Origin: Polyrhizophydium stewartii
Taxonomy: Eukaryota > Chytridiomycota > Chytridiomycetes > Rhizophydiales
Reading direction: 5' to 3'
NCBI GenBank assembly: GCA_027604665.1
Contig: JADGIZ010000049.1
Location: forward strand, 1-34,369
DNA: 34,369 nt
Part shown: in pieces, positions 1,367 through 25,661 of the stretch
Layout of the letters: each line of letters starts with the position of its first letter
Position numbering within the stretch: position 1 is the first letter of the stretch
Notes under the pieces: model-generated
Databases searched by the model: none
What the model was told of the DNA's origin: nothing
Seen by the model: the letters and a program-made list of their open reading frames with translations, nothing else
Program-made: the position numbers and the translations under genes

Positions 1367-1421
1367 TGAGCAACGTCATGGCTGAGTCGCCATCCAGGTT
1401 CGCAGAGGCCAACTCCGCACT

Positions 1422-4400
1422 TTGACCGTGTCGATGCAAGACGCGAAGCAGACGCATCTGCCGTCGCTCGCGCCAGGCGCGGGACTCTCGCCAAGAGCCG
1501 CGACCTCCGAGGACGACGCCCGCGCGCTTGCACGCACGTCATCTGCAGGCACTCGCCGAAGCCTCCTGACTCCGGAGCGCCCGCCGAGCGGCAGAGCGGG
1601 CTCGCAGCGCTCGCGGTCAAGGTCAATCTCATCGGGACGCCAAGAGCCCGCCGAAGTCGGAGGAGGCGAGCTGCAGTCCAGGCTTCTGACCGTCGCAACC
1701 AGAAAAGCTGGCCCGCACTTTGAGCTCGGCAGCAAGCGCAAGCTCTCAGGGGCTTCACAAGGCCCAGCCGGCATCGCGGCTCTTGCTGATGCCTCTGCTG
1801 CCGCCAAGTCCGCGGCTCGGGCTGCGTCTCCTGCCGACTTTGGGCCCAGGCCGCCAAAGCGGCTCTCCCCGCTTGCAACCAGCGCCGAGGATGGGTTTCC
1901 ATCAACCGTCCCACTTATCCTCCAGAAGGTGCGTCGTTGCCATGCGGTTGCCGTCCATCCTGCGAGTCGCGCCGCGAGCAGCTCTTGCGCGAGCGATTCC
2001 CAGACAACAAACATTCCGCGCTTCATAGTTGTCGCGACTGACGCGGAGCTTGTCTTCCGCAACGCCGCCGCACAGCACATTCCGGACAGCATATTCTCGG
2101 CATACACATACTCCAAGAAAGAGAGCGTGCCCCTGAAGCCCGTCATTCTGCGAGCTAAGCGCTCTACAGTCAATCCAGCGAGGCCCAAATCATCCGTGCC
2201 CACAAGCCGCAGCGCCACATTGGAGCACGGCGGCGAAGACGATGGCGGCATCATGCGCGCGGCGGCCCCAGACGACTTCACCGACATCCTCGTCGGCTTT
2301 GTCCCAAATGTCGTACCGCCAATAGGCTCGTCCAGCGGCCTCGACTCAACAAGTTCTCTGCGCGACCCAAAGCGATCCCGCGCTAATCTCGGAGGCGGCG
2401 CTTCCAATGATGACGATATGGACGTTGACGCTCGGCCGCATATTTCGGAGCTGCCACGCGCATTTGCCGACATCAGCAACGGCGGCCATCGCGGCCGCCC
2501 AGGTACTGGCCAAGCATACGCCGATGTACCCACGCGCGGTGTTGGGAGCAACGATGACGACCTGGACGACGAAGACGACGACTGCGACAGCAACGGCGGC
2601 GAGGCTGGCGGCGGCGATATGCAAGCCGGCGGTGGTCGGAATGGCGCCGACTACGAAATAGTGTCTGGAGCGGCTGCCGGCCACGGGGATGGATCAAAAA
2701 AGACATTGACCAACAGCGGCAATAACTCGGTTCACGTGACGGCGGCAGCTCGGGGTCAAAAGTCGTCGTCCATCTCGGGCCAGGCTGGCCGATCCGGAAG
2801 CAAATCCGACTCCGGCAAGCCCCTCAACGACCGCATTCAGGCCGGCGCGGCTGCTGGCCAGGTCGCCATGCAAGGCACGGCCCGCACGATCGGGTCTGCA
2901 ACACATGCAAACCACCTGCCAGACACGGACCCGCGAAGCCCCTTTGCATTCATTCGATTCATCGAGCAGAACCCAAAGACGCGCGACTTCATCTACATGA
3001 TCCCAATCAAGGCATCCGTCAAACGCGGCCATCCAACGTTCAATCCATACAACCTCCAGACGGTCGAGTTCTCCCAGATTGACACCAAGTCGCCCGAGGG
3101 CTTCTACACAATGTCTTCGGAAGGTGTGACCCATTTTAACAACCTCGGTCATGGCGAATTTACGCCGCTGCGCCAATGGGTCCGCGAGCACAGGCTCTTT
3201 CACTCGCTTCTCAGAATCCACTTCTTCTCGCGGTACCGCATGTGGAAGTGCTTCACGCTCTGGAAGCGCACGGTATTGCACACCAAAATCCTGCTCGCAA
3301 AGAAGCAGCTCGGCAAGAACCTGTTCCTCGCTCATCCGGTTCTTCGCTCTGCACTGCTCAAAATCCAAGCGCTCAACGCCGAAATTGTCTTCAACAAGCG
3401 GCTTGTGTCCGTCGAGGACCAGCAAAACTACGAGCTCAGCGAGTTTGTCCGCCAGCAGAAGCTTTGGGTTGATCAGGTATCGTCCGTCGTCCTGCGGTCA
3501 TGGGGCGAGCAAGTCCGTGTCATTGTGGAGCAAGCCAGCCTCTCGTGTCTCAAGGAAAAGGGCTTTGACGTCCAGGCTTCGCTGATCTCCAACGGCAGCA
3601 CCAAGGACGAAGAGGTCGCGGGCGGGAGCGGCGCTGGGGCACCACGCAAGAGCGTCGAGAGCATTTCGGGGGCTCCCAAAAAACTGACCTTCACCGAGCA
3701 AGCCGCCCGCCGCACCGAGTGCCGGCGCTTGCAGCGATTCGTCAAGCTCGTCGATTACGGGATCATCTCCACACTCGAGTCGTTGGCGATCCAAAGCGTC
3801 CAAGAATTGCTGAAGCTCGCTTTTCGAGGCTGCTCCGACTCGGACGTCGCCATCGATAGTACGGGCACGGGCACCGTCATTGTCGGCGAGAACGGCGTTG
3901 TGCAGAGTGCAGACCCCAATGCAATCGCTGGAGATAAGTTCGGCATTGAGCAAGATGCGGCGCAGCAGGGGCAGCCCAGCGCCGGCGCTGCAACAGGCGT
4001 GCAGGTCGGCGGCCTCGTGGTTGGCGCCGAGGTCACGACGTCGCGGCTTTGCGAGTGCGGCTTTGATGGCTTCTCAGATATCCTGAGCCGAATCATCATG
4101 GCGACGGTACCACAGCTCCAGCTCGCCGAGACCGTCGAGGAAGAGGGCCTACTTCTTGGCACCGACGAAACGGCGATGGAAGGCGTTGTGATCGAGCCGC
4201 GAAGCAAAGCGGCGGCCGATGCTCACGCGACTTCCAGCCACGGACATCCAGGATCTGGTTCAGGTGTGGCCATCGTCGCTGCGTCTGCTGCCGTACCCAA
4301 AGCGGACGACAAGTGGAAGGCGCCGTCGGATAGAGAGCGCGCGCGCCAGTTTGTCGCTCTCTTTCGCACTGAGCTACTCGTCAACCAAAGCGATGCTTCG

Positions 4401-7400
4401 AAACGCTTCTTTTTTGCACCGTCGCTGCAGGACTACCTCTCGGCGATCGACACTATTCTCAAGATATACATGACGACGATCGAGCGCTTCCCGCCTTTGA
4501 CCAACTCGATTCTTTTTCTCGATCCAGCAAATCTGGCTGGGGGAGCCTACTCTGCTGTCCGAGGACTCGAGGATCCCGAGTTCGGCGAAGGCCCGCAGAT
4601 CGGTGCGATTGTCATGGATTGCGGCTACTTTCGTGAGCTCTGCGGCCGAATTCGCGGCGTTCTCGTGGGCATGTTTTCCAACGCAGCGCGCTGGGTCAAG
4701 ACCCTCGAGAATGTTCGCTCGATGTGGATCGAAAACGAGCAGTTTCACGGGCTCGAGGATCTCCGCAGGTCGGCGGGTGAGGTGGCGTATCTGCTTGCCA
4801 CGGCACCAGAGGGCGTCGAAGGAGGTGTGTCGGCGCTGCTGCTCAAAGCAAAGGCCGACCAGGATGCAAAGGAGGCAGAGCGCATGGCGCTTGAAGGAGT
4901 ACCAGAGGGACCATCTGCGCCGCTGGCCACGCCAAAGCCTGTCAACATTCTCGAGCTGGGCTGCCACGTCGCCTTCCGGCCCGATGGCAGCAAGTACTCA
5001 CCGCTTGTGGAGTTCTTTGAAGGAGCTCTTTCCAAGTTTGCCTTCCAGCGACAGACAATGACCGCTATTCCTGTGCGCTCAACAATCAACAACCTCTTGA
5101 TCGACACCAACAAGCTCAAGAGCGTGCTTGTCCCCAGTCCAGAGCGCTGCTTTGACGAGGTTGCCAAAATCCTGCCCAACCTTGCTCGCGACAAGAATGA
5201 GCTTCTCCTCACCGAGGTTCAGACCTGGGTCCGCGTGCTCAACACCCAGCCCACCAACGTAGAGGGTTTTGTTGAGTACCTTGGGTGGCTCGAAAAAGGT
5301 ATGGGTTTGACAGAGTGGAGACTGCAGTCTGGAGCGACAGGGCATATGGCGGCACGAGGAGCTGACAGTCATTCAGTCCGGGACAGCATGCCGATTGTTG
5401 ACCAGCTCGAGGAAGAAGTCACAAGCATGTATGCGCTGCTCGAGCTGCACAAGATTCAGATCCAACCGACCGACCTTGCGATGTTCCAGACCCTCGGGCC
5501 AACGCTGCGGACGCTCAAGGACTCGGTTGACGTCGCCATGGACACCAAGGAGGAATCAATCACGCGCTTCACGATTGACCTCGAGAAAAGCATGTCGGAG
5601 CTAATGAGCGAGGTCTCGGACATCCGAAACCGCGCGCAAGACCCCATGGTACTCAACTCTGGCTCGAAAAGCGATGTGGTCATCAAGTTTCTGGAGGATC
5701 TTCGCCAGCAGCTCGAAAAGGTCGAAATCCTGAAGAAGCGCTACGAGCAGTGGGGCGAGCTCTTCAAGCATGGCGGCACGTCGCCGAGTGCAAGCTCAGG
5801 CGGCGACCAAGCTGCGGGTGGCGACGCGAGGGCCGCACCGCAGGCGCAAGGGAGCTCGGCGCCATCGGCGGTGCTGGCCAAGGGATCTGAGCTTGACGAA
5901 ACGAAAGCAGAGATCGAGATGAAGCGCACGTTGTGGACCAGCCTCAAGGAATGGGACACCCTGACCGAGTAAGCCATCGCTGCAGCCAGCTGCGACACAA
6001 GCAATGCGGGGCTTTGGATGCTAACAAAGTAGCCGTGCTCTGTTTACATAGAGCCTGGCGTGCGCAGGCATTTGACTCGCTCGTCACGGACGAGATCAAC
6101 ACAAAGATTACGCTCTTCCTCAAGGTCGTCTACAATCTCGACAAAGGTCTTCCACCAAACGAAGTCGTTCCGAGGCTCAAGGGTATGGTGGACGAGTACC
6201 GTGCCATGTACCCGACAATTGTCGATCTGCGTAATCCGTCTCTCAAGCAGCGCCACTGGGAAAAGATTCAGGATGCCATCGGCAAGGCGCTTGTCAAGGA
6301 CGAGACTTTCACGCTTGCAAAGCTCATGGACATGCGCGTCTTCGACTTCAAGGAAGAGATTGGCAGCATCTCGAGCCAGGCTGGCTCCGAGGCTGCCCTC
6401 GAGGAGATGCTCGGCCGCGTCGTCAAAAACTGGAGCGAGGCCGAGTTTATTGTCACACCGTACCGCGACAACAAGGACGTTTTTATCCTCGGCACCGTGG
6501 AGGATATACAGACTCTGCTAGAAGACTCGCAGGTCACGATCGCAACAATCAAGGGCTCACGCTTCATCGGGCCGATCAAGGCAGAAGTCGAGCGCTGGGA
6601 CAAGCAGCTGACGCTCTTCTCTGAGACGCTCGATGCCTGGCTGACCTGCCAGCGCAACTGGCTTTATCTCGAGAGTATCTTTTCCGCGCCAGACATCCAA
6701 AGACAGCTCCCGGACGAGGCGCGCATGTTCTCGCAGGTCGACCGAAGCTGGAAGGATGTCATGCGAAAGGTGTCACGTAACCCCAACGCTATCAAGTCGG
6801 GAACGCTTCCAGGTCTGCTCGAGACAATGCAGCAGAACAACGTGCTGCTCGAGCAAATTCAGAAGTGCCTCGAGGACTATCTCGAAAGCAAGCGCCTGCT
6901 GTTTCCGCGCTTCTACTTTTTGTCAAACGACGAGCTTCTGGAGATTCTATCGCAGACAAAGAACCCGCAGGCCGTACAGCCTCACCTCAGCAAGTGCTTC
7001 GATGCCATCAAAAGCCTCGAGTTTTCGTCAAACGATCCAAAAAGCATCGATATTGTTGCCATGATCAGCCCAGAAGGCGAGCGTGTACCGTTCCTCAAGA
7101 CCATCAAGGCGCGCGGCAACGTCGAGGGCTGGCTCGGCAACGTTGAGGAAGCAATGGTGGCCGTGCTGCGCCGCCTGATCAAATCCTCAATTGCGGACTT
7201 TGAGGACTTGAAGCGCTCCGAGTGGGTGCGCGAGCATGTCGGCCAAGTGGTCGTCACGGGCAATCAGGTCATCTGGTCGCGAGATGTGACAGAAGCTCTC
7301 AAATCAAGCGACCCATCAAAAGCACTCGTTTCTCTCAAGCAAAAGTGCATCAGCGTGCGTGGTTTTGGCATGCTTTGCAGTGAAGTATCGAGGCGCCCGA

Positions 7401-10400
7401 CTTACAAAAATTTGCGCAGAACCTCTCTGGCGTCGCGATGCTTGTGCGCGGCGAGCTCACCAAGATTCAGCGCGCGATTCTTGGCGCTCTCATCACTATT
7501 GACGTCCACAACCGAGATATTGTGCAAGGGCTGATAGCAGCCAAAGTGACGGCAGCAGGCGACTTTGAGTGGACAAAGCAACAGCGGTACTACTGGGACG
7601 TTGATTCAGATACATGCCACGTAAAAATGTCAACCTCGGTCTTTTCGTACGGCTACGAGTATCTCGGATGCTCGCCACGCCTCGTCATCACGCCGCTCAC
7701 GGATCGCTGCTATCTCACTTTGACTGGCGCGATGCAGCTAAACCTAGGCGGCTCGCCTGTCGGTCCCGCCGGTGAGCTGATGCGTCGGCTGGGTGCTTGT
7801 CAACGCATTTGAGCTTACCACCGATCCAGGAACGGGCAAATGCTGGGGCCGCGGCACGCGGCTGGTCATGCTCGACGGCACGGCCAAGGCGGTCGAGGAG
7901 ATCTGCGAAGGCGACGTGCTCATGGGACCGGACTCGCAGCCGCGCACCGTGCGGCCCGGCTCCATCACGCGCGGCACCGAGGCCATGTACCGCGTCACGG
8001 CGACCGACGATGCCCGCATCTCGTGGACCTGCAACGGCTCGCACATCCTCGTGCTGCAGCTCAACGCCAAGCCCACCGTTGTTGCTGCCGGCGGCCGGTT
8101 CTTCATCAAGACGTGGACGACACGGCCCGGAACGAGCGCAGTCTCGCAGATCCCGTGTGCGGATCTCGTTGGCGGTGCATTCTCGACCCGCAACGACGCC
8201 GAGGCGTTCATCGAAGAGCTTGTGCGCACCGAGTGGCAGCCACTCGTGTTCGAGTGCACCGTCGTCGATTACCTTGCCATCAAGGACGAGTCGCTGCGGC
8301 GGTCGCTGGCCATGTTCCAGCCGTCGCTGATCGAGTGGCCGTCGCCGACCGTCTCGCTCGCTGCAAGGATCAGCGAGATGCGCGGCGCAGAGACGTCGCT
8401 CGCCATTGTCGCCCAGGTCGCATGGGCCATCGGCGCATGCCTGGCACTGAGTGCAGATTCAGGCTGCGTCGAGACTTGCGAGCAAGTTCACTCGGAGTTT
8501 GACCGCATCGCGGCGATGCTCGGCGAGGGTGTGCCGGGGAAGCGCGGATTGGCATTCTCGGCATTGCTTGGGTCGTGCGGGTTGGCCCAGGCCACGCACA
8601 TCCCGAGCGAGCTGATGACCGAGTGTGCGATGGTACGCCGCGCGCTGCTGGCTGGACTTGTCGACTGCAGCGGGCGCATTGGCGAGGACGGCGGCTGCAC
8701 GATTACATCTGCATCGGCAGGCATCCTGGCCGACGCAGCAAGCCTGGCTCGCGGCCTCGGTCTCGTCGTCGGAAAGTCGAACGAGCATGCATCCATCGCA
8801 GTCCGCGGTACAAGTCTCACGACTGTTGCCGAGCACATTGTGACCGACGAGAAGCGCCGTGCCGTCGCTGAGCTGGCATCGAGCGCACAGAGCACCGACT
8901 CGCGCTTTGGCTTCACGATCGAGTGCGTTGGAGTCGACGACTACTTTGGCTTCTCGCTCGACGGCCGCGACGGCCGCTGCCTGCTCGAGGACTACACCGT
9001 GACGCACAACACAGAGACGGTCAAGGATCTCGCCAAGGCGCTCGCCAAGCAGTGCGTGATTTTCAACTGCAGCGACGGCATGGATTACAAGATGATGGGC
9101 AAGATGTTTGCGGGCTTAGCGCAGTCTGGGGCCTGGTGTTGCTTCGACGAATTCAACCGCATCGATATTGAAGTGCTCTCAGTGATTGCGCAACAGCTTT
9201 TGACGATCAAGAACGCCAAGGATATGAAGGCGACCAAGTTTATGTTCGAAGGGCGTGAAATCCGGCTGATCGAAACCTGCGCTGCGTTCATCACGATGAA
9301 CCCCGGATACGCCGGCCGCACGGAGCTGCCCGACAACCTGAAGGCGCTATTCCGCCCGATCGCGATGATGATCCCGGACTACGGCCTGATTGCCGAAATT
9401 ATGCTGTTTTCGGAGGGCTTTGAGAATGCCAAGCCTCTGTCGGGCAAGGTGGTGAACCTGTACAAGCTGTGCTCTGAGCAGCTTTCACAGCAGGACCACT
9501 ATGACTTTGGCATGCGCGCAGTCAAATCCGTTCTAATCATGGCCGGCGCGCTCAAGCGCAGCAACCCCGAGCTGACGGAGGAGGTGGTTCTCATTCGATC
9601 GCTGAGAGACTCGAATCTGCCAAAGTTTCTCTCCGAGGACATTGGGCTCTTCCGAGGCATTCTGTCCGACCTATTCCCGGGCGTCCTCGTTCCCGAGCGC
9701 GACTTTGGCGCCTTGGTCGCGGCTGTCAAGGAGGTCATGATCGAGCGCGAGCTTGAAGTCGTCGATGGGTTTATTAGCCGGGTTTGCCAGCTGTCCGAGA
9801 CAATGCGCATCCGTCATGGCGTGATGCTCGTTGGACCTACTGGCGGCGGCAAAACAACGTGCTACGAAGTGCTACAGGACGCCTCGGGCCGTCTTCGCGA
9901 CCGCGGCGCAGGCTCCGAGTTCCAACACGTCAAAACATGGGTTCTCAATCCAAAGGTGCGTGTCTGTGCTGTGCAGCGTGATGCGCAAATTGCATTTGGT
10001 TTGCCGTTATGAAGGCTGACACGTAATTCACGCAAAGTGCGTGGCAATGACAGAGCTCTATGGCGAGTTCAATCTTGCGACCATGGAGTGGAAGGATGGC
10101 CTTATCGGCAATGTGTTTCGGGCGCAAGTCAGCGAGAACACGCCCGATGAAAAGTGGACGGTGTGCGACGGACCTGTGGATGCCCTATGGATCGAGAACA
10201 TGAACACGGTCCTTGACGACAACAAGCTACTGACGCTCATCAACGGCGAGCGCATCAAGATGAACTCGACGATGCATATGCTTTTTGAGGTCGCCGACCT
10301 GGCCGTTGCCTCGCCGGCGACCGTGAGTCGCTGCGGCATGGTTTACATGGACCCGGCGATTCTGGGCTGGCGAGCGTACGTGAAAATGTGGATGCGCAAG

Positions 10401-13400
10401 CTACCGCCATACGTCTCCGATGATCTTAGAGCGCACATTACACTGCTGTGCGAGACGTTTGTTGACGCAGGCTTGCGCTTTGTTCGCCGCAACTGCAAAG
10501 AGTACATCCGCTCCGTCGACCTGAACCTGGTCGTGAGTCTTTGCAAGCTCATGCGCACGTACATCAACCGCCAAAAGGAGATCGACTTCAAAATGGCGCC
10601 GGCTGATCTCAAAAACCTCTTCTCGAATCTCTTCTTGTTTTGCTACGTCTGGTCCATTGGCGGCAACCTCGCCGACGGCTTCCAAGACGCGTTTGACACA
10701 TTCCTGCGCGAGCTTCTCGACGCGGCCGCGCTTGCCGAGGTTCAAATCCCTTCAGCCAACAACGTATTCGGGTACTTTGTCGACCTCAAGTCACGCAGCT
10801 TTGTGCAGTGGGACGACATTGTGCCGAGCTTCAAATACTCTGCCGAAGTGCCGTATTTCGACATGATGGTCCCGACAGCAGATACAGTCAAGTACGCGTT
10901 CCTACTCGAGGCCCTGCTCACGAACAGCTTTCCGACGCTGTTTACGGGCAACACAGGCGTCGGAAAGTCGGTGATAGTGCAGGACCTGCTCAACCGCGTT
11001 GGAAAGGCAAACAAGTACGTCAACGTTGTCCTCAACTTCTCCGCGCAAACAAATAGCGCGCAAACCCAGCAGGTGATGGAGCTCAAGCTCGAGAAGAAGA
11101 GAAAGAACATAAGCGGCGCGCCAGCCGGGTTTTCCAAGATCGTGCTGTTTGTTGACGACCTCAACATGCCCAAGCTCGACACGTACGGATCGCAGCCTCC
11201 TATCGAGCTTCTTCGGCAATACATCGACTTTGGCGGCTTTTACGATCGCGAGAAGCTGACGTGGAAGGTCATACAAGACGTTGACATTGTCGCCGCTTGT
11301 GCGCCTCCAGGCGGCGGTCGAAACAACGTCACGGCGCGCTTTCTGCGCCACTTCAACCTGCTCAACATCCCCGCGCCGAGCGAGGTGTGCTTGTTCAAGA
11401 TTTTCAAGTCGATTGTCGAGGGCTTCCTCAAACCGTTTTCCGCCGAGATCAAGTCGGCCTGTGAAGCTATCGTCAACTCGGCCATCGAGATCTATCACCG
11501 CATGTGCACGGAACTGCTTCCAACACCTGCAAAGTCGCACTACACATTCAATCTGCGCGACCTGTCCAAGGTCGTCCAAGGCGTCTTGCAGGTACGGCCG
11601 GGCGTCATCTCGACCAAGGCGGAGCTTGCACGTCTTTTTTGTCACGAGGCGTCCCGCGTGTTCCACGACCGCCTCATCGACGATCCAGATCGCCAATACT
11701 TCAACAAGCTGCTGTCTGAGCTCGCGGAGAAGAACTTTGGGACGCAGATGTCCAAGGAGAGCTTTTCCGAGACGCCGATTATGTTTGGTGACTTCTCCAA
11801 GCGTGGAGTCGCGCCCGAGGACCGTATCTACTGCGAAATGGCGGACATGAAGCTCATGACGACGCTTCTCGAGGAGTATCTCGAAGAGTACAACGTGACC
11901 ATGAACAAGGACGTGCGCTTGATCTTCTTCATGGACGCCAAGCAGCACATCACGCGCATTTCGCGGATCATTCGACAGCCACGCGGCAACGCACTGCTCG
12001 TGGGAGTCGGCGGCACGGGCAAGCAGTCGCTCACTCGACTTGCGTGCCATATTTCCGACTACCAATGCATCCAGATTGAGCTCACGCGGACGTATGGTAA
12101 AGAGGAATGGCGCGAGGACCTCAAGAAGCTATACCGCTTGGCGGGCGTCGAGGCCAAGAACACCGTCTTCCTCCTCTCGGACACGCAGATCAAACAAGAG
12201 GCCTTTTTGGAGGACATCAACAACATCCTCAACTCTGGCGAGGTGCCCAATCTGTTTGAGTTTGACGAGCGCGAAAAGATCCTCGGCGATCTGCGACCGA
12301 TTGCGCGCGAAAAGGGCCTTGGCGAGGACCGTGACTCGGTCTCGCAGCTGTTCATTAATCGCGTGCGCGACAACCTTCACATTGTCTTTGGCACCAGCCC
12401 CGTCGGTACCACGTTCCGTACCCGCTGCCGCATGTTCCCCTCGTTGGTCAACTGCTGCACAATCGACTGGTTCGACGAATGGCCCAAAGAAGCACTCTTG
12501 TCTGTCTCGCGGCGCTTCTTTGAGTTTGTGGACCTTGGCAATGACGAGATGAAGGAGAAGATCTCGGCCATGTGTGTCGAGATTCACGCGTCGGTCGGCG
12601 AGATCGCCAAGCGCTTTTACGCGGAGCTCCGGCGTAGATACTATACCACGCCAACATCGTACCTGGAGCTCATTAACCTGTACATCTCGATGCTGCAGGA
12701 GAAGCGCAAGGAGCTCGGCTCGTCGCGCGACCGTCTTCGAAATGGACTCAACAAGCTTGCCGAGACAAACGACCTCGTTTCCAACATGCAGATCGAGCTT
12801 GAGAACCTTGGCCCCGAGCTCAAGATCCGTGCTCAGGACACCGAGGCGCTGATGATCAAAATTGCCAAGGATCAGGAGACGGCCGACGGCGTGCGGCGCG
12901 TTGTTTCAGAGGAGGAAGCCGTGGTGCGCGAGAAGGCGCTGCAGACCGAGGCCATCGCGGCCGAGGCGCAAAAGGATCTCGACGAGGCATTGCCTGCACT
13001 TGATGCCGCGTACAAGGCGCTCGACGCGCTCGAGAAAAAAGACATTGCCGAGCTCAAGGTCTTCTCGAAGCCGCCAGACCTCGTGCTCATGGTGCTCGAG
13101 GCCATCTGCATTCTGTTCAAGGTCAAGCCCGACTGGGAGAACTCAAAAAAACTTTTGTCGGACCCGCAGCTCATGAAGAAGATGGCCGAGTATGACAAGG
13201 ACAACATCCCCGAGAGCCTGTCCAAGAAGCTCAAAAAGTACATCGAGAGCCCAAACTTCAACCCAGAGGCCGTCGAGAAGGTGTCGCGCGCGTGCCGCAG
13301 CATGTGTATGTGGGTCATTGCCATGGACCTCTACTCGCGCGTCTTCAAGGAAGTGCTCCCAAAGCGCAAGCGGCTCGAGGAGGCGCAACAAACACTCGAG

Positions 13401-16400
13401 ACAACCCGCGCCAAGTTGGCCGAGAAGACGGCTGCGCTTGCCGAGGTCGAGAACCAGCTCGAGAAGCTCAAGGCAAAGTATGAGAGCTCGGTGGCGTCCA
13501 AGAAGCAGCTTGTCGAAAAGATGGAGGAGACCACACGCCGGCTTTCGCGCGCAAGCAAGCTCACGCTGGCTCTGGCTGACGAGCAGATCCGCTGGACCGA
13601 CTCGGTGGAGCGCCTCAATCTTCAGATCGACCTTCTTGTCGGCAACATGTTCCTGAGCGCCGCATGCGTCGCTTACTTTGGTGCATTCACGTCCAACTAC
13701 CGTGCCGAGCTTGTGCAGCGCTGGATCGTCAGCTGTCAGGCGGCCGACATACCCGTGTCCGAGAACTTCCACTTGCTCGAGCATCTCGCAGACCCAGCCG
13801 TTGTGCGGGACTGGAACATCCAGGGGCTTCCCGCCGATGCGCTCTCGGTCGAAAACGGCATCCTTGTGACCCGCGGCCGGCGCTGGCCGCTGATGATTGA
13901 CCCGCAAGGCCAAGCCAACCACTGGATCCGCAACATGGAAGGCGCCGAGCTCAAGACGGTCAAGCTCTCGGAGCCCAAGTTCCTGCGCTCGCTTGAGAAT
14001 GCCATCCGCACCGGCCAACCCGTGCTGATGGAAGACGTCGGGGAGCAGCTTGATCCGGCCCTCGAGCCTCTGCTGCTTAAGCAGACCATCCGGCAGGGCG
14101 GCCGCGTGCTGATGAAGCTCGGCGACTCATTTGTCGAGTACGATCGCAACTTTAAGCTCTACATCACGACAAAGATGCCCAACCCACACTACCTGCCCGA
14201 GGTCTGCATCAAAGTTACCATTATCAACTTCACCGTCACCAAAGTTGGTCTCGAGGGCCAGCTTCTGGCCGACGTTGTCAAGCTAGAGCGCCCAGAGCTT
14301 GAGGAGCAGCGCAACTCGCTGATTGTCAACATCGCGGCCGACAAGAAGCAGCTCAAGGACATCGAGGAAAAGATCCTCAAGCTGCTATTCAACTCCCAGG
14401 GCAACATTCTCGACGACGAGGAGCTCATCAACACCCTCAACCAGTCCAAGGTGACGTCGGCGGCCATCAATGAGCGAGTGCTGCAGGCCGAGCAGACCGA
14501 GCAGGATATCAACATGGCGCGCGAAAAGTATCGTCCGGTCGCGATCCGCGGCTCCGTACTGTACTTTGTGATTGCGGATCTCGCCGAAATCGATTCGATG
14601 TACCAGTTCTCGCTCAAGTACTTCAAAAATCTCTTCAACAACTGCATCGTGCAGTCGGAAAAGTCGGACGATCTCAACAAGCGCATCCAGACGCTTTGCA
14701 AGAACTCGACTTACGACACGTTCTCGAACGTATCGCGCGGTCTGTTTGAGGCGCACAAGATGATCTACGCCTTCATGATCTGCATCGAGACCATGCGCGA
14801 ACGCGGCCAGATTGACGAGGTTGAGTGGAACTTTTTCCTGCGCGGCAGTGGCATGATTCGCTCGGACATCCCCACGCGGCCCAACGCCCGGTGGCTGTCA
14901 AACTACATGTGGACGAACCTTGTTGATCTGGCGAGCACCGTGCCGCAATTTGCATACGCCATCGACCACATTGCCATGTACCCTGCAGACTGGGAGGTAC
15001 TTGTCGAGTCGGACACGCCGTTTATGCTGCCGGTGCCAGGCGACATGACCTCGCAGCTCACGGACATGCAGAAGCTGCTTCTTATCAAGGTGCTCTGCGA
15101 GGAGAAGCTCGTGCCGTCTGCAGTCGAGTTTATCAAGTGCAATCTAGGTGCCGAGTTCATTGACATCCCGCCGCTTGACCTCGCCAAGGCATACAAGGAC
15201 ACGGCACCCGAGTCGCCACTGATCTTTATTCTCTCGACGGGGTCCGACCCGGTTGCATCGCTCATGAAGTTTGCCGGCTCATCAAAAATCAATATGCAAG
15301 ACAAGCTTCACATGATCTCGCTCGGCCAGGGCCAAGGTCCGATCGCCGAGGAGCTCGTCAAGCGCGCGACAACAAACGGCGAGTGGGTGTTTCTGCAGAA
15401 CTGCCACTTGGCGGCGTCGTGGATGGCCCGGCTTGAGGCCATGGTCAAAGAGTTTGGCCAGCCAGAGTCCGCCATCGACCCCAACTTCCGCCTCTTTCTG
15501 TCGTCCATGCCGTCCAAGGTCTTTCCTGTCGCGGTCCTTCAAGAAGGCGTCAAGGTAACCAACGAGCCGCCAAAGGGTCTCAGAGCCAACCTCGCGCGCA
15601 GCTTTGCCGACATATCCAAGGATCTGTTCGACGATCACCCGCCGCAGGGCGTCAAGTTTCGCAAGCTGATTTTTGGCGTGTGCTTCTTCAACGCCATCAT
15701 TCACGAGCGTAAAAAGTTTGGCCCTCTCGGCTGGAACATCATGTACGACTGGAGCAATTCGGACCTTGAGGTCTCGATCACCATCCTGCGCAACATGCTG
15801 CAAGAGTACAAGAGCATTCCGTGGGAGGCACTTCTTTATCTGACTGGCGAGATTACCTTTGGAGGCCGCGTAACCGATGACTGGGACCGCCGCACGCTCA
15901 AGTCGATTCTGTCGCGCTTCTACACTCCGCAGATCCTCGAGGATGCGTACAAGTTCTCGCCATCAGGCATCTACTACGCGCCGGCCGACGGCGAGATCTC
16001 GTACTTCCGCGCCTACATCGAAAGCCTGCCCTTCAGCGAGGAGCCATCCGTTTTTGGCATGCACGAAAACGCAAACATCAGCTTCCAGATGCAAGAGACT
16101 CGGCGGCTCATACGCACTGTCCTCGACGTGCAGCCACACATGTCCACCTCGAGCGGTGGCAAGTCAAGCGAGGAGCTTGTGACGGCAATCGCGACCGTAA
16201 TTCTGGACGAGTGGCCAAGCTTGCTGGCAATCGAGGTGCCTAGCAACAGGCCCGGCTCCGCGAAAACAGCGGGCGATGCCGCGCCGAGTCCGGTCACCCA
16301 AGAGCTCTTCAAACGCGACGACGCCGGACGCATGATCAACTCCCTAAGCACAGTCCTGCTTCAAGAGGCGGCGCGATTCAACAAGCTCAATGCCATCGTC

Positions 16401-17346
16401 AAAACGTCGCTGGAGAGTCTCATCAAGGCGGTCAAAGGCTTGATTGTCATGAGCTCCGAGCTCGAGCTGGTCTTCAAAAGCCTGCTGAACAATGAGGTTC
16501 CCGGCGCGTGGTCAAACCACGCCTATCCCTCGCTCAAGCCACTCGCATCGTGGGTCAAGGACTTCCACAAGCGCGTCGATATGATGCGCGGCTGGGCGGA
16601 CGAAGGACAACCCACGTACTTTTGGCTTCCCGGCTTTTTCTTCCCGCAAGGTACGGCAGTCTCCAAGCTCGGCGCGACCAGCACAGGCTAACAAAGTACA
16701 TGCAGGATTCCTCACGGGTGTTATGCAGAACCACGCGCGCAAGTACAACATTCCAATCGACACGCTTCTGTTCACCTACAAAGTCAAAGATTTCGATGAA
16801 GCCGAGCTGCGGGCCAGGGCATCCGACGCCAACACTTTGGCTGACGACGAGGATGGCGTGCTTGTAAGCGGCCTGTTCATGGAAGGCGCGCGGTGGGACA
16901 AGGAAAAGCGGCTTTTGCAGGATTCGTTCCCGATGGAGATGTATTCGGTGTGGCACTGTGCTGCAGTGATGTGCAAACCTGCGAATTCAGTCAGGCACTA
17001 ATCTGCTTCACCCGTGCAGGTAATGCCGCTGATAAGGTTCATACCAACACAAACCAGCCCGTCCAAGGACAGGCTGTACGTATGCCCGCTCTACAAGACC
17101 TCGGCACGCGCTGGTACACTGTCAACCACTGGTCACTCCACCAACTTTGTTGTTGCGATTTTCCTCCCAACCGAGCGGCCTTCAGACTACTGGATTGCCA
17201 AAGGCGTCGCCTTACTTGTAAGTTTACTTAATCGGGGCACACAGCCTTGCTTCATGCGCTGACTCGTTCATTTTGTTTAAACTGCTGCTTCGCGCGGATC
17301 TGATTTACGATTCAAATTCGCGCGGCAGTGCCAGCTCAACGAGTAA
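1422..17346 (+). CDS. Axonemal inner-arm dynein heavy chain (one-headed DNAH3/7/12-like group), intein-bearing
   Basis: A microtubule motor of the flagellar axoneme, acting as an ATPase in the inner arm. Eight exons: 1422-5968, 6052-7354, 7420-7771, 7830-9955, 10038-16650, 16706-16947, 17020-17217, 17329-17346. They total 15,399 nt, a 5132-aa precursor and 4742 aa after intein removal. Every junction restores conserved dynein sequence, ending in GVALLCQLNE, typical of the one-headed axonemal group. Seen in order (precursor numbering): about 500 residues of low-complexity N-terminus; the conserved block [12 protein letters not shown]; the tail and linker; AAA1 Walker A GPAGTGK/T (2065-2071 and 2462, split by the intein) with FDEFNRI as Walker B; AAA2 GPTGGGKT (2736-2743); AAA3 GNTGVGKS (about 3080); AAA4 GVGGTGKQ (about 3432); the stalk coiled coils and microtubule-binding region; AAA5 ([14 protein letters not shown]), AAA6 and the C-terminal domain. 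The first ATG (1422) is taken as start. The N-terminal extension is longer than in relatives I recall, so the true start could be further downstream. An in-frame cryptic intron at 1929-2003 is possible. The 3' end converges on the next gene, 37 nt away. Confidence 0.95.
5969..6051 (+). other. Dynein intron 1 (83 nt)
   Basis: GTAAGC donor, CATAG acceptor, internal GCTAAC branch-like motif, phase 2. It joins KEWDTLTE to [10 protein letters not shown], the expected linker sequence. Confidence 0.9.
7355..7419 (+). other. Dynein intron 2 (65 nt)
   Basis: GTGCGT donor, GCGCAG acceptor, phase 0. It restores the spacing of the conserved Cys-x3-Leu-x5-LVRG segment just before AAA1. Confidence 0.88.
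7772..7829 (+). other. Dynein intron 3 (58 nt), inside the AAA1 P-loop
   Basis: GTGAGC donor, ATCCAG acceptor, phase 1. It splits the second-from-last Gly codon of the Walker A motif: the upstream exon supplies GPA plus one base, the downstream exon completes Gly and continues TGK. The frames before and after differ, so splicing is required. The acceptor lies 11 nt upstream of the first intein codon. Confidence 0.93.
7841..9010 (+). mobile_element. Intein in dynein heavy chain AAA1 Walker A motif (390 aa)
   Basis: A self-splicing protein insertion, continuous in frame with both exteins. It starts with Cys1 directly after GPAGTGK and ends in His389-Asn390 directly before Thr of the native GKT motif. 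Block [14 protein letters not shown], followed by [14 protein letters not shown]. Block B: residues 63-72, [10 protein letters not shown], with His68 and Asn65 where Thr is usual. Blocks F and G: residues 360-390, [14 protein letters not shown], then [10 protein letters not shown]. These patterns resemble fungal nuclear PRP8-type inteins. Predicted chemistry is Cys1 acyl shift, transesterification to Thr+1, Asn390 cyclisation, and ligation of the exteins to restore GPAGTGKT. Removing it gives the uninterrupted dynein consensus ([21 protein letters not shown] follows). No stop or intron lies inside. All key splicing residues except the block B Thr are canonical, so it is probably splicing-competent. 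P-loops are favoured intein sites in other ATPases. Confidence 0.93.
8408..8875 (+). other. LAGLIDADG homing endonuclease region of the intein, probably degenerate
   Basis: Intein residues about 190-345. The block D/E part is recognisable: HIPSEL (253-258), then [16 protein letters not shown] (265-280), a LAGLIDADG helix retaining its acidic residue (Asp275). The expected first LAGLIDADG helix appears only as [11 protein letters not shown] (194-204), with Leu/Ser at the positions of the Asp-Gly pair; an Asp two residues later (206) is out of register. Family knowledge says both acidic residues are needed for cleavage. I infer a nuclease that has lost activity, while the splicing blocks remain intact. 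Confidence 0.65.
9956..10037 (+). other. Dynein intron 4 (82 nt)
   Basis: GTGCGT donor, GCAAAG acceptor, phase 0. It joins VLNPK to [11 protein letters not shown], matching the conserved NPK-x-MGQLYGEF segment of AAA2. Confidence 0.9.
16651..16705 (+). other. Dynein intron 5 (55 nt)
   Basis: GTACGG donor, CATGCAG acceptor, GCTAAC branch-like motif, phase 1. It joins GFFFPQ to [14 protein letters not shown] in the C-terminal domain. Confidence 0.92.
16948..17019 (+). other. Dynein intron 6 (72 nt)
   Basis: GTGTGG donor, GTGCAG acceptor, CACTAAT branch-like motif, phase 0. It joins PMEMYS to VMPLIRFIP. Confidence 0.9.
17218..17328 (+). other. Dynein intron 7 (111 nt)
   Basis: GTAAGT donor, CGGCAG acceptor, phase 0. 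It joins GVALL to a final 18-nt exon encoding CQLNE and a stop, the expected dynein C-terminus. Confidence 0.92.
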
Positions 17347-17383: not shown

Positions 17384-20300
17384 TCAACTCCACGGCGTCG
17401 GAGTCACGGAAACGAGTTTTCGATCCCGCACGGCTTGATCAAATACAGGATTCTGTTCGCACTCTTGCCTTTGCGATGCGCAGTGCTGGTTCCTGGATGG
17501 CAATGCTGCTGAGCTCTCGCACGAGGCGAAAATCGGCTGTTGTGTCAAATGGATTTTGCTTTGCGCGCTCGAGAGTGACTTGGGGATGGCGATTTTAGTC
17601 GCCCGATCGGCAGGCGCGCGTCGAGCTTGCCATGGAGTGGGCTCCGTGGGCTCTGCGATGCCCGAGGGACGGACCTGATGCTCAAAGTTGCGATCAACGT
17701 CCGGGCGCAAAGCATCAGCTGGCAGCCTCTCAGCGACGTGGTCTCCTTGAATGCGACCTCGAGCCGATTCTGTTCGTATACTATCGCTCGTGTGACCGCA
17801 TGCCCCCATGATACAACTGGCCGGTGCGCAGCTATTGGCAAATCCGATGACGCTCGGTTTTGCGTTGCGCGAAGAATCATTTGCCGCCGATGCGAGCACG
17901 GCAGACCTGCATGTGCGGTCTACCTTGATGGGCTTGACTTCCAAGGCCGCCGACGCCGATTTGAGTCTTCTCGTGGTCCAAGCGCCTTGCGTGTTCGCAT
18001 TGCGTGCAACTCTTGTAGTTGCGCTTGCAGATACGCCCGATCCAGTTGTAGCGCGGATCGGCGCAGGATTCTGAGCATGCGCGAACTGCCCAGATCGACG
18101 CATGGGCAGAACCCCCGGAAGTCTGCAAGTAGGAGCCGACGCCATCAAACCGACTGCAGCTGCCTGTGTCATCGGAGTGTGACCGGAGCGTCTGCCTTTG
18201 CGGCAGTAGATCCGCTTTTCCTGCGTTGCTGATTTTTCTGCGTGAACTATGGCCCACATGCCACGCCTCAATCTCGGTTCTAGTATCGTCGCGATCACGC
18301 AACGGCTGCGTGGCTTATCTGCCTGGCCCTTGACAGATTTAGATCCGCTACAGATGCCGGGAGGTGGCTCGAGCGGCCCACCAAGGGCGGTAGAGTCCAA
18401 ATCGCGCGCGTTGGCGGTGATTCCAGCTTGCGCAGTCGGCTGAGAGCCAGTGGCTAACTTGCATTGATGTGTTAGACGACTCAAACTCGCCGAGAAAGAC
18501 GGCACTGCAAGGAGCTGTGGGGCGGCTGAATTTGCTGCTTGCCCGTGAATTAGGGGCTTATTTTCCATCTCTTTGTGCGAGAGTGGCTCGGGCTGCGCCA
18601 GCAGCTCTTTTGCAGCGCGTGAGCCCTGAGTAGCTAGCCTGAGGCGCCAGATGTGCTCCGGAACCCGCGCTGTCGGTTCGCAAAACGATGCATCAAGAAG
18701 TTTACGAGGTACAACTGATCGGCCATCAGCAACAGGCTTGATATTCGACCAATCTTGGTGCTGTGTCGCTTGCTTCGACGAAGCAACCTGCATATGAAGA
18801 ATGGTTGACGAACGCGACGAGTCCCTTGCGCGCTCTGCAAGACGCTCAAATGTAACCTTGGCCAATGAGGGACGTGGCTGAGGCTGCTCGACCTGAAGAA
18901 GCAGATGATGAAAGTGCAGTGATCCGCATGCGGTTTCAAGATGAGGCTCCCCCGCAAGCCGCTGATCAGGGCTCCTCGAGCATGCTTTTGAAGGCGCAGT
19001 CTCTTTGCTCTCGGACACCCGCTCAAGCAAACTCGGGCTGGGACCGGCGTGCTTGCTGTTGGTTACGATGCTTGCGCGCATCGGCAAGCTTGCGATACCG
19101 ACGCTTCCGATCGCCAAGGCACTCCAACCCATGGATGCATGCTAGTGAATGTCAGCTAACCCTGAAATAAACACCGCTCAAAAGTCACATTGAAACGAGT
19201 CGCCCTAAATCCTACTTTTGTTGCAGTGTGCCCCATGCTGTTGACTATCGGTGATAAAGGCTCGCATTCTGATAGAGAGTCGTGTGCAGTGTACCTCGCC
19301 TCTTTGGTGCTACAAACATCGTCTGGAATATCCAATAGTTTGACTCGAACTGGACAGATGGATTGTTCCGACTCACTGTCAGCTGATAGACGTTTTCGCA
19401 ATAGCAAACCTAATGTGCGTGAGTCACACCTGCCGCTCTGTTGTAATTACCACATGAGCAAGCTTCATCCAAGCATTTGTCATTCTTGCTACTTGGAGCT
19501 CTATGCAGCAAACATGCGTTCAGGTTGTCGACGCCAAAGTCCTCGGCCAAATTGACTACTGCCGGGCTGGCGGCCTCGACGGACTCGTGGTTCTTGGAAG
19601 AGCTTGTTGTGAGAGAATGCTGCTCAAACGCTCGAGATGTAGCAGCTCCGGCGACGTCAGGAGCAGCAGCAGTGGCGGAAACACTAGCAGTGGAAGCTGT
19701 CAGGGCGACTGCTCTTGGGATACGAGCAAGCGCAGACAAGGCTCGAATGCGCACAGACGTGCGCGTCAGATTATTCTGGCTCTGCTGCACAACTGAACGC
19801 GCGTTTTGCACAGAGCCGTCGCTCGTCGGGTCGCAGATCACTCGATCCAAGCCACTTTCGTCACAGCTGATCAGTCCTTTCTGCGGAGAAGATAGCCGGG
19901 CATACTGATTGCGGTCATGGCAGTGGGCATTCGGCGATCCTGATCCCAGCAGCTCGTCTACAACTGAACTCGTTTGAGCGTCAGGAGCCGCTGTAGCCTG
20001 GATTCCAGATACAATTTGCGAGCCAGGGCAGCACCGACCGTCTGATTCAGGTGTCAAATCTGCCTTGTTCGCGCTGCGCCACCGATTTCGGATACAGCTC
20101 TTTGACGATGCGGTGAGAAGCGTGCCGTCAAGCACCTCGACTCCGACATTGAGGTGCGCTTCAGCTTGATCGATCGCACGCCTGGATTTGTGCAAAGTGT
20201 CACTGCGCGGTAGTCGATCTCTGACCGAGATTTGGCCCGGTTGCACATCGACACAAGGACGCACAAGATTCTCTCGTGGTGTCGCAGAACGCTCGGCTGA

Positions 20301-21101
20301 TCCAATAGGCTTGGGATGCGTTGCGTATAAAGCAGGATCTGCGCTTGAGTTGCCATTCGAGCCGAAATGAGTGAGATGCCGGGCGCCAGCGCCTTCAGAC
20401 TCGCGCGCGGGAACTCTGTCGATATCCGAGCGAAACGGCTGATCACTGATGGATGCGGCGACCTCCGCACGCGAAACAAATGATTCTTGCATACTGCTTG
20501 TATAATCATGTGCAGAAGCATCGCGTCCTGCTTCTGCCGCTGCCGAGCCGCATTCAGATGGCTCGCCGAATGGATCGAGCTGCCCCTCACCGCCGGCATA
20601 GAACGGGCCAAGTTCGTTGGCCCAAGAGACCGATTGCGATGTGAGGCGAGCCGTTTGGCGCCGGTTTTTGTGCGCGGACGACGATTCGTGGGTGAGAAGC
20701 AGGGTCGACTTGACGAGCACAATGTTGGGCATGTCGGCGTCTGCCTCTATGCTGCCGCCATCGGGTGCAGAGGGCAGAGACTCGCAGGCAGGAACAGCAA
20801 CGCTATCCGCGCGCAGACTCGGCGGCAGGCTGCCTCGCTTGCGCAAGTCTCCGGTCGAACAAGAAACATTGCCAAGGCCGGTTGAGACGCATGCGCGGCC
20901 GGTGGGTTTTGCGGCCAGCCCTTTGGCCCGAGAAAGAGTGCTGCGTGACCCCACGCGCGTTGGCGGCGGCTCGCGAGCATGGCTGGACCTGTGTGTCTGG
21001 GTATTGATCAAGCCGTGTCCACAACTCGTGCGTGCCTCTTTGTGTACAGCGTCCGGGTCGGCTGGGCTGTTCAGATTCGGCGCGGATGCGTAAGTTGCCA
21101 T
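17384..21101 (-). CDS. Unrecognised Ser/Ala-rich, probably disordered protein (about 1198 aa)
   Basis: I do not recognise this protein. Three minus-strand exons are proposed: 21101-19430, 19382-19216 and 19141-17384. They stay in frame across both introns and total 3597 nt. The first exon starts with ATGGCAACTTACGC, a good start context, and encodes MATYASAPNLNSPADPD. Composition is rich in Ser, Ala, Arg and Thr with scattered Cys and no visible domain, signal peptide, membrane segment or coiled coil, which suggests intrinsic disorder. The middle exon includes a more ordered-looking VRVKLLDIPDDV. Evidence for coding is the length of the two open frames (about 560 and 580 codons) on the same strand and the phase-compatible splice signals between them. 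The first intron's acceptor is ambiguous among three AGs, all in the same phase. The start codon overlaps the ATG of the divergent IQ-motif gene at 21099-21102. The two large exons could instead be separate genes. Confidence 0.55.
19142..19215 (-). other. Second intron of the Ser/Ala-rich gene (74 nt)
   Basis: Minus strand: GTAGGA donor, CACTAG acceptor, GCTGAC branch-like motif about 13 nt upstream of the acceptor, phase 0. It joins HTATK to HASMGWSALAIG. Confidence 0.55.
19383..19429 (-). other. First intron of the Ser/Ala-rich gene (47 nt or longer)
   Basis: Minus strand: GTGTGA donor, phase 1. ATCAG at 19383 is the nearest acceptor; two later ones (TGTCCAG and TTCCAG) keep the same frame and would make a more typical intron length. 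A CTGAC motif precedes the TGTCCAG option. Confidence 0.45.
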
Positions 21102-24100: not shown

Positions 24101-25636
24101 CATTTAGATTCAGCGAGCAGCAGCCAGTACGACGAGGACCATGGTCTGCTAAGCGTGCAGAGCACAAACTGCGACGCACATGAGCATGGTCACCAACCAC
24201 GAGTCTCTGTCGGTGGACGCGCACTGCCACCAATCGTTCGCAGGCCCACCTTACAAGGGAACCACTTGCTCAATCCAGAAAGACACGGGGAATATGGCAG
24301 AGATCATGCAAGCGATCAAGATGGCGCAAACGGCAGAGCTTCGGAGCTGGAATATCCCAGCGCGGAGGACGGAATTGTGCAGAATCTTCCCGATTACATG
24401 CATACGATCATGGAAGGCATTCAGTATGTCGACAGCTGTATACTGCGCATCCAAAGGTTGTATATATACCTGAATTGCCACTATTGATGTACCAAAGAGC
24501 TGACAGTTGTCAAAGATATTGGCGCCTGCATCTGTTTTGCAGACGGTTTCACCTGCGCACACTTGCTGCGATAACAGTTCAGAGATGCTTCCGCTTGTGG
24601 AAGATCCGGCAGACGTACATTGATACATTGCAGCTGGTATGTCGGCGACTCGGAAGTCTAAAAGTATTTTTGGAGATCGTGGTTGCACTGACAGGCACAT
24701 TGCGCACTGCTCGCGTAGCATCGCATCAATCCGATCTTAGATATTTCACCATACGTGCTGCACATGCACGACCTAAACCGTCGCATTGTTGCTTCGCAGG
24801 CGAACATCAACAATCGGTATTACATCCCAACGTTTCAGATGGGAACGCTCTGGAATCCGACAAAGAGTCTGCTGTTTCTGATGACCCAGCGCATCTTCCG
24901 TCACTACGTGCGCATCCGAACGCGGCGGCTGAACGTAGAGTTGTACCTTGCGATCCCCTCGACACGAAAGGATGTGTGGGACTTGTACACATTGCTGCGC
25001 TCGAAGCTCTTTTCCAAGTACCACATCCCACCCAACTTCAAGCCCAACGCGAAGCTCTATGACTTTGAAGCGGCAGCGCGTCAAGCCCGTGACTCGCGGC
25101 GCCAGTCGACGATTCGCCCGGCCTATGGCGCGGGAATGCCTTCTGAGAGGCTAGAGCGCCGAATCAGCATGGCGATTGGGATGCTGCCTTTTTTACACGC
25201 TCAAAATGGCGGAAACGCAACCGAACGGCGGCTAAGCAACGCGGCGAATGTCCGTGGCGATCCACCACTGATGCCGCCTCAGATCAGCGCGGCGGTCGCA
25301 CGGCGGCTGTCCAACGCCTCGAATCTGGGCTCGCTCTTAGACTCGAACGAGTCGATTGCAATTGGCAGCAGCAGTCTGCCGTCATCTACAGAGTCGTCCA
25401 TGCAAAACGTGCGAGGGCCACGAAGCCGGCTGAACTCGCTGGCGTTGCAGATGGAATCAGAACTCATTATTGCTGCTGTGGTGCGCATGGCCAAGCGGCG
25501 CTTCACACCAGAAGAGGTCATTGAAATGGTGCGTGAGCGCAAGCCAGCGCTTATTCCGACTCACTATCGCCAAGCGCGGCGGAACTCGATGCACCTCGTC
25601 CCGTTCGCCGACCTTCGGCATTCTGTCGCTGCGTGA
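21100..25636 (+). CDS. Large IQ-motif protein, otherwise unrecognised
   Basis: Five exons: 21100-22027, 22105-23324, 23399-24456, 24543-24636, 24719-25636. They total 4218 nt (1405 aa from the first ATG). Later starts at 21130 or 21196 would give 1395 or 1373 aa and leave room for a promoter. The only recognisable element spans a splice junction near residues 1063-1100: ILRIQRRFHLR followed by ITVQRCFRLWKIRQTY, two adjacent IQ-type motifs that typically bind calmodulin or a related light chain. The reconstruction is convincing because joining exons 3 and 4 creates the first IQ motif. The N-terminal 1000 residues are mostly low complexity with basic patches. The C-terminus holds an ordered-looking segment (NRRIVASQANINNRYYIPTF through KLFSKYHIPPNF, about 1112-1200), then repeats of RRxSxA and a final helical region. 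A calmodulin-binding, possibly cytoskeletal role is inferred only from the IQ motifs. AATAAA follows the stop by 3 nt. Confidence 0.7.
22028..22104 (+). other. IQ-gene intron 1 (77 nt)
   Basis: GTGAGT donor, GCCAG acceptor, CTGAC branch-like motif, phase 1; joins KDPVI to EKRSKDERN. A nearer acceptor at 22058 gives a 31-nt intron but runs into a stop. Confidence 0.7.
23325..23398 (+). other. IQ-gene intron 2 (74 nt)
   Basis: GTATGA donor, ATTTAG acceptor, GCTAACC branch-like motif, phase 0; joins ESFVKRR to PRALLPIPRAVV. Confidence 0.75.
24457..24542 (+). other. IQ-gene intron 3 (86 nt)
   Basis: GTTGTA donor (weak), TTTTGCAG acceptor, GCTGAC branch-like motif, phase 2; joins ILRIQ to RRFHLR, creating an IQ motif. 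Confidence 0.75.
24637..24718 (+). other. IQ-gene intron 4 (82 nt)
   Basis: GTATGT donor, GCGTAG acceptor, CTGAC branch-like motif, phase 0; joins IDTLQL to HRINPILDISPYV. Confidence 0.75.
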
Positions 25637-25638
25637 CC

Positions 25639-25644: not shown

Positions 25645-25661
25645 AGCGACCCTGCCTCGAG

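Follow-up and report, generated by a model that had tools for sequence, protein, structure and literature searches.

The window analysed here, the whole 34,369-nucleotide (nt) contig JADGIZ010000049.1 of the chytrid Polyrhizophydium stewartii, very probably carries a nuclear axonemal dynein heavy chain gene of the DNAH6 class in which the catalytic P-loop is interrupted by a class-1-type intein with a linked 58-nt intron, a unit copied among dynein P-loops of this genome. The contig, called C49 below, belongs to a 12.86-Mb assembly of 690 contigs whose completeness is unstated. An intein at this catalytic site had been proposed from the DNA of the window alone (the original prediction), and family, motif, fold, and selection evidence now support it.

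The original prediction placed a 390-residue insertion at 7841-9010, between the Lys and Thr of the Walker A motif of AAA1, and these borders were borne out, with the frame open throughout. The Lys codon is AAA (7838-7840), followed by TGC for Cys1 (7841-7843), and the insertion ends with AAC for Asn390 (9008-9010) before the ACA of Thr+1 at 9011. The interrupted site has the following parts, where copies are the eight found in the genome, seven in AAA1 and one in AAA2.

7772..7829, plus strand: predicted spliceosomal intron, 58 nt, GTGAGC...GATCCAG, splitting the Gly codon of GPAG^TGK in phase 1 (sequence; paralog proteins)
7830..7840, plus strand: exon piece, 11 nt (GA ACG GGC AAA), Gly codon end plus Thr-Gly-Lys, end of the N-extein (sequence)
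7841..9010, plus strand: intein, 390 amino acids (aa), Cys1 to Asn390 (open frame, PF05203)
7841..7879, plus strand: N-terminal splicing block, invariant in 8/8 copies
8033..8044, plus strand: splicing block B, NGSH; NGPH in the other six AAA1 copies and NEDH in the AAA2 copy, His invariant
8597..8890, plus strand: LAGLIDADG homing endonuclease remnant, second half (PF05204), with LVDCSG in place of the L[IVLM]D[ST]DG of most relatives shown
8912..9010, plus strand: C-terminal splicing blocks F and G, ending DYTVTHN (alignment of eight copies)

The insertion belongs to a known intein family. The complete PF05203 profile (1-228/228) aligned to intein residues 1-389 at E=4e-19, placing a Hint splicing domain at both ends of the in-frame insertion, and PF05204 matched at E=4e-9, so the profile search that had been suggested as a check gave results that are not due to chance. 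PI-SceI matched in sequence (E=1e-14), and the fold matches those of PI-SceI and the PRP8 inteins. NCBIfam had no family for the dynein intein, and its intein N-terminal model matched only an RPB1 intein in the genome. The splicing features that had been named, Cys1, block B, the C-terminal blocks, and Thr+1, were all read in the sequence; Cys1, block-B His68, His389, and Asn390 are invariant in all eight copies, and the +1 residue is always Thr. On these grounds, 7841-9010 is very probably a class-1-type intein of the Hom_end_hint (PI-SceI/VMA-like) family, a true intein that is probably functional, with predicted splicing.

Excision of the intein had been expected to restore the dynein consensus. 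The restored motif was as stated, but removing the intein alone is insufficient and the 58-nt intron must go too; the DNA does not have GPAG directly before TGK, as had been read, since its codons are interrupted after 7771 by the intron. This segment has GT-AG ends and a branch-point-like CTNAY, and its removal restores the frame, as in a spliceosomal intron. Retention would shift the frame (58 leaves a remainder of one when divided by three), and the intron must therefore be removed. The eight-residue Walker A motif, GPAG^TGK/T (caret, intron; slash, intein), is thus cut twice, by an intron spliced from RNA and, three codons on, by the intein. Removal of both gives GPAG-TGK-TE[TS], as in the intein-free dyneins on contigs C19, C27, C123, and C267, and the deposited paralog proteins P0245 and P0247 agree over Walker A with an intron that has been removed. 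The cassette has disturbed other deposited gene models: P0244 starts within the intein, and P0246 misplaces the intron donor (RTLFG-TGK).

With a GT-AG intron only 11 nt upstream, RNA splicing probably acts at this site, and the insertion itself might be spliced out of the mRNA, being a long intron or an exitron, instead of leaving the protein. Yet the insertion runs from TGC to AAC without GT-AG ends, and if RNA splicing ran from the donor at 7772 to beyond the intein, TGK would be lost, as its codons are not repeated just before 9011. The frame is moreover open in 8/8 copies, with a ratio of nonsynonymous to synonymous divergence (dN/dS) of 0.29 in the seven AAA1 copies, and deposited proteins keep the insertion. 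We regard removal from the mRNA as highly improbable.

Searching the genome with the window intein gave eight places among 11 scored candidates, all open frames, and the same eight were recovered with PF05203 and with the divergent copy as query (40-44% identity to the other seven). Those on C49, C169, C106, C59 (AAA1), C74, C15, and C246 are 88-100% identical to the window copy; a second place on C59 is 43% identical. The eight lie on seven contigs in different dynein P-loops, all at GK/T. Seven are in AAA1 (TGK/TE[TS]); the eighth is in AAA2 (GPTG^TGK/TK) of the C59 gene that also has an AAA1 copy. The AAA1 copies, in seven hosts, are all exactly 390 aa long and share 87-94% identity, with 4-9% of bases differing. 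The same inteins are present in proteins deposited under P. stewartii, in at least four chains. An artefact, whether one intein duplicated by misassembly or contaminating bacterial or viral DNA, might be suspected in a draft of 690 contigs when similar inteins occur in bacteria and viral contigs. Against it stand the eight different P-loops on seven contigs, the base differences between AAA1 copies, the deposited proteins, and the distance of full-length relatives (25-30% identity; 30% for the best-scoring viral row, among the matches listed), which leave this the least probable of the explanations considered.

The AAA_6 profile (PF12774) gave 24 matches in the genome, grouped into 13 genes, seven of which carry the intein. 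Four of the six intein-free genes are on C27, C19, C123, and C267, the last three with uninterrupted AAA1 P-loops; the other two are degenerate and dynein-like, on C7 and C45. By match to PDB chains, C49 is DNAH6, C74 is DNAH3/7/12, and the outer-arm classes are C59 (DNAH5) and C169 (DNAH9/17); for C74 and C59 the top row bears a non-dynein molecule name from a multi-protein entry, and the class was taken from the next rows. C106 and C15 were classed as DNAH7 and C246 as DNAH1 by deposited name alone. Among the intein-free genes, C27 is DNAH10, C19 DNAH2, and C123 DYNC2H1 by PDB match, and C267 was called cytoplasmic dynein 1 by its sequence only. The intein therefore occupies seven of nine axonemal-class chains, comprising both outer-arm classes found and five others. 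Those five chains are of classes that are single-headed inner-arm dyneins, and the DNAH2 and DNAH10 classes, both without intein here, form the two-headed inner arm. The degenerate genes on C7 (L030) and C45 (L032) have AAA1 P-loops reading GPVSVGKTE and GQGGSGKTA, and no DEFNR motif was found in them.

The intron accompanies every copy. In 8/8 it is 58 nt long, in the same phase, and 11 nt upstream of the intein, with GTGAG[CT] or GTAAGC...CAG ends and a branch-point-like CTGAC or CTTAC near the 3' end, and in 8/8 its removal gives GP[AT]GTGK. The introns of the seven AAA1 copies are 78-93% identical, and a 60-base probe matched six of the eight, with no match elsewhere in the genome. The AAA2 copy was set beside that of C169: the introns share 56/58 bases and the first 20 intein codons 98% of bases, the next 20 codons fall to 80%, most of the rest to 25-63%, and the very end reaches 74-83%. 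Outside, in the exons, only 24/60 and 25/60 bases match. We take this pattern, from the base comparison, for a partial tract of conversion by which the intron and at least the first 20 codons passed between unrelated P-loops. The tract says nothing on whether the AAA2 intein had an earlier intron; the AAA2 P-loops of C49, C27, C123, C267, and C19 have no such intron. On C27 (DNAH10 class, L043), a 77-nt intron without an intein lies at the identical Walker A position (30079-30155, minus strand), with a short, weak resemblance to the cassette intron (16/1000 shuffles as high). By its sequence and position, it could be either an ancestor or a relic of the cassette.

Averaged across all 21 pairs of AAA1 copies, dN was 0.049 and dS 0.171, giving the dN/dS of 0.29. 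Pooled values were 0.14 for residues 1-110, 0.22 for 111-180, 0.38 and 0.35 for the endonuclease region, and 0.33 for 351-390, so constraint is strongest in the N-terminal splicing half. In a star-like neutral simulation at the observed synonymous rate, 15.7 stops were expected in the seven copies; none was observed, and 0/1000 runs were stop-free. The intron-intein units are thus kept under purifying selection, as judged from these substitution patterns. This bears on whether the inteins are instead dying, with splicing lost and the dyneins non-functional or pseudogenes. Loss of both endonuclease Asp residues in 8/8 copies is what a late stage of the intein life cycle would look like, but the eight copies hold no stops (about 16 being expected neutrally in the seven AAA1 copies, which all keep 390 aa), the N-terminal splicing half is the most constrained, and the key splicing residues are invariant. 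We consider decay very unlikely.

PI-SceI uses D218 and D326. In the dynein inteins, both endonuclease Asp positions are lost in 8/8 copies: at the first motif, which is LG[DN]G in most relatives shown, seven copies read LALS and the AAA2 copy IARG, and at the second, which is D[ST]DG in most relatives shown, the copies read DCSG, DRSG, DYSG, DCRG, DCCG, or DGAA (LVD[CRY]SG, LVDC[RC]G, WIDGAA). By pattern, the second Asp is kept in 100 of 125 located relatives (own copies excluded), and not in P0248, P0252, P0003, or P0251. The copies thus lack the one catalytic Asp per motif of active LAGLIDADG homing, and from its motifs the endonuclease looks dead. No free active endonuclease copy was found in the genome, where PF05204 matched nine places, the eight inteins and a PRP8 intein on C180.

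Protein relatives comprised the best 120 of 149 at E<=0.001 plus nine from a dynein search, and the intein was located in 128 of the 129. It lies at GK/T or GK/S in 118/128 (115/125 without own copies). Among the matches listed, precomputed Pfam annotation makes them mostly DnaB-type and other helicases, and where 97-100% of the query aligns, identity is 25-30%, higher values being confined to short stretches. Viral contigs gave at least 600 pattern matches, at least 439 of them encoding a relative, and 80 were retained; the top-scoring row is 30% identical, and lower rows reach 49% in a segment. A bacterial or viral donor was considered and rejected, as the relatives listed hold no close match and the best-scoring viral row is the one at 30%.

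A tree of 126 rows, from which seven relatives below 240 aa and our organism's deposited copies were dropped, contained a long-branched group of 12 with Shimodaira-Hasegawa-like approximate likelihood ratio support (SH-aLRT) of 99: the eight dynein inteins, one from an Entrophospora dynein, and three metagenomic helicase inteins. The latter, all GK/T inteins without the second endonuclease Asp pattern, are from XPB-like (P0003), DHX37-like (P0248), and FANCM-like (P0251) helicases; these names follow Pfam, for XPB and FANCM in part. The three may represent a eukaryotic lineage of P-loop inteins. In a database of 5.8 billion proteins (2735 candidates scored), dynein inteins were listed only from P. 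stewartii and one Entrophospora, and more may have been missed, because only four of the seven P. stewartii chains were listed. The second host, a cytoplasmic dynein of Entrophospora sp. SA101 (P0252), has its intein at the same AAA1 site (LGGS-TGK/CWGKG...TVTHN/TESVKALG) with 26% identity over the whole intein, and differs in fungal phylum and in being of the cytoplasmic, not axonemal, dynein class. The P0252 gene model lacks PFGPAG before TGK, which suggests an intron there too. The Entrophospora intein stands outside the other eleven of its group and the helicase inteins join those of P. stewartii first; because it lies outside and the forks are weak, a single origin of dynein inteins is neither shown nor excluded.

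How old the units are in P. stewartii can be judged against their hosts. The next 80 extein residues are on average 67% shared, and the inteins did not track their hosts (Mantel r -0.36, with 4221/5040 permutations as high). On this evidence, the units are younger than the host paralogs or have been homogenised among them. The second alternative would make the inteins ancestral to axonemal dyneins, older than the paralogs and kept alike by gene conversion instead of recently spread. It draws on the C27 intron at the exact position without an intein and partly like the cassette intron, on the Entrophospora intein at the same site, and on the conversion of the AAA2 copy over its intron and at least 20 codons. 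The known dynein inteins come, in a search that was not exhaustive, only from P. stewartii and one Entrophospora, the P-loops of C19, C123, and C267 are uninterrupted, and the tree joins helicase inteins to those of P. stewartii before Entrophospora, if by weak forks; all three speak against great age. On balance we find an ancestral origin doubtful, though far less so than the other alternatives, and favour copying of the intron-intein unit after the paralogs diverged.

Divergence of the introns, 0.164 over the whole and 0.183 over the interior, is about that of synonymous sites in the intein (0.170), as expected if intron and intein were copied together; at 58 nt, the intron estimate is rough. 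Several observations weigh against our interpretation. Long co-conversion tracts were not seen in the exon flanks, where only the first eight codons on the 3' side are slightly low (0.17 versus 0.26 and 0.32), which leaves active homing between paralogs undemonstrated. The letters of block F differ among copies (DDY, DDH, DNY, EDY, DFY), as do those of block B (NGSH, NGPH, NEDH). Finally, splicing is a prediction, and it may be slow or partial.

In the mechanism we propose, the pre-mRNA would first lose the intron at 7772-7829. An N-S acyl shift at Cys1 would then be followed by transesterification to Thr+1, cyclisation of Asn390 aided by His389, and a final acyl shift, steps that follow established class 1 intein chemistry. 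GPAGTGK would be joined to TETVK, completing the AAA1 Walker A with the junction GPAGTGKTETVK and releasing an intein of about 42 kDa, and the Thr that finishes protein splicing would serve as Walker A Thr once the motor is mature. By analogy with Pyrococcus RadA, where a P-loop intein blocks ATPase function (available part of PMC6195587), AAA1 that has not spliced would be expected to lack activity. After paralog divergence, the intron-plus-intein unit would have been copied as DNA into seven axonemal AAA1 P-loops and one AAA2, likely by homing while the endonuclease was active and/or by ectopic gene conversion; we infer the direction and the enzyme of this copying. We propose that the copies persist today because failure of splicing would disable the motor, and swimming would then depend on splicing.

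Inteins as a kind are known; within the literature searched, their occurrence in dynein, its scale, and the linked intron are new. PI-SceI, the fungal VMA1 intein, is 20-23% identical to the dynein intein in structure alignments. The dynein intein is 390 aa long against 454 aa, lacks the endonuclease Asp residues, sits three P-loop residues later (GK/T), and, unlike the VMA1 intein, exists in eight copies with a linked intron. Its +1 residue is Thr, whereas that of the VMA1 intein is Cys. Prokaryotic and viral P-loop inteins, such as those of DnaB, share the GK/T or GK/S site and a +1 residue that is the Mg-binding P-loop residue, but they are mostly in helicases and most keep the second endonuclease Asp. 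Fungal PRP8 and RNA polymerase inteins have other hosts and other sites. Goodwin et al. (2006) reportedly dealt with RNA polymerase inteins. PMC1635734, from its available part, is a paper on RNA polymerase inteins. In the mycobacterial DnaB intein, the +1 Ser is the Mg-binding residue (available part of PMC6195587). Eukaryotic inteins are scarce, with a short host list that lacks dynein in the accessible part of Green et al. (2018; PMC5784728), whose main text does not contain the word "dynein". The same part describes GLT1 and CHS2, likewise related inteins in different genes of one nucleus; that pair has two hosts and 48-57% similarity, against seven hosts and 87-94% identity for the dynein inteins.

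The novelty of the dynein host stood up in open-licence PubMed Central papers (supplements aside), where no report of a dynein intein was found; among the titles listed for papers naming both "intein" and "dynein", none was about a dynein intein, and no open-licence paper there paired "Entrophospora" with "intein". In their available text, neither "dynein" nor "P-loop" occurs in a 2009 paper on intron and intein sites (PMC2814812), neither "intein" nor Polyrhizophydium in the main text of a 2026 atlas of fungal flagellar proteins (PMC13358043), and neither "intein" nor "dynein" in two Batrachochytrium genome papers that use P. stewartii (PMC12204190 and PMC11797018).

The rest of the host gene extends to both sides of the interrupted site.

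2928..3815, plus strand: N-terminal tail stretch of the dynein, in open reading frame (ORF) 1386-5969, whose residues 515-810 match DNAH6 chains (best E 9e-59)
6050..7186, plus strand: dynein linker (DHC_N2; PF08393, E=4e-138), residues 52-430 of ORF 5897-7534
7648..7771, plus strand: N-terminal part of AAA1, to GPA and the first base of the GPAG Gly codon (AAA_6 profile 1-42 at 7648-7773)
9011..9856, plus strand: C-extein, Thr+1 (the Walker A Thr) and the rest of AAA1 (AAA_6 profile 43-327, 9002-9856)
10020..16691, plus strand: DNAH6-class ORF encoding the remainder of the motor, from the AAA2 lid to the C-terminal domain (Pfam; PDB matches)

The C-terminal 2223-aa ORF scores highest with three DNAH6 chains of the PDB (2742-2764 bits; the best DNAH1 chain reaches 1985), and by this best match from AAA2 to the C terminus the host is an axonemal dynein heavy chain of the DNAH6 class. 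Downstream, at positions 17384-33709 of the window, eight long ORFs tested (295-907 aa) gave no Pfam match at 1e-4.

A zoosporic fungus had been guessed as the source, correctly: the window intein is 100% identical to P0244 ("Dynein heavy chain 6, axonemal", Polyrhizophydium stewartii) over the 98% that the record holds, and P. stewartii is a chytrid of the Rhizophydiales. In the available parts of two papers, it is saprophytic and closer to Batrachochytrium dendrobatidis than Homolaphlyctis is (PMC12204190), and a saprobic chytrid existing as strain JEL0888 (PMC11797018). By identity, the closest RPB1 to the genome's own is from Batrachochytrium (85%, with 44% of the query aligned); a "Rhizopus" RPB1 record (P0123) with more bits at 67% identity was set aside, as it holds a tandem duplication and no intein.

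Two further inteins, one in PRP8 and one in RPB1, were not found by the dynein-intein searches, giving at least ten inteins of three kinds (eight dynein, PRP8, RPB1). The PRP8 intein (C180, L136, minus strand; GMLDPLEVH/CLEAGTQV...TTVHN/CLDFPNIVIKG) keeps the Asp of its second LAGLIDADG motif, LVDSDG. The unrelated RPB1 intein (C356, L001, minus strand; GEPATQMTLN/SVDYLEF...GLCMRD/TFHYAG) begins with Ser and ends with Asp, and environmental RPB1 proteins P0211 and P0231 have inteins at the same site.

A single intein family thus occupies the catalytic site of seven of nine axonemal-class chains, with a further copy in AAA2 of one. Through the linked intron, the transfer of an intron along with a second mobile element can be viewed directly, and copies without the endonuclease Asp raise the question of how inteins spread without a nuclease of their own. 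More tentatively, the intron and the endonuclease-dead intein might be a composite mobile element, moving as one cassette between P-loops in dyneins of Chytridiomycota and Glomeromycota; RNA splicing would join Walker A at GPAG^TGK and protein splicing at TGK/T, and the element would be a shared post-translational gate on almost the entire axonemal dynein set, one that could couple activation of zoospore motors to intein splicing. If the inteins splice, a eukaryotic motility organelle would depend on eight protein-splicing events in its motor family.
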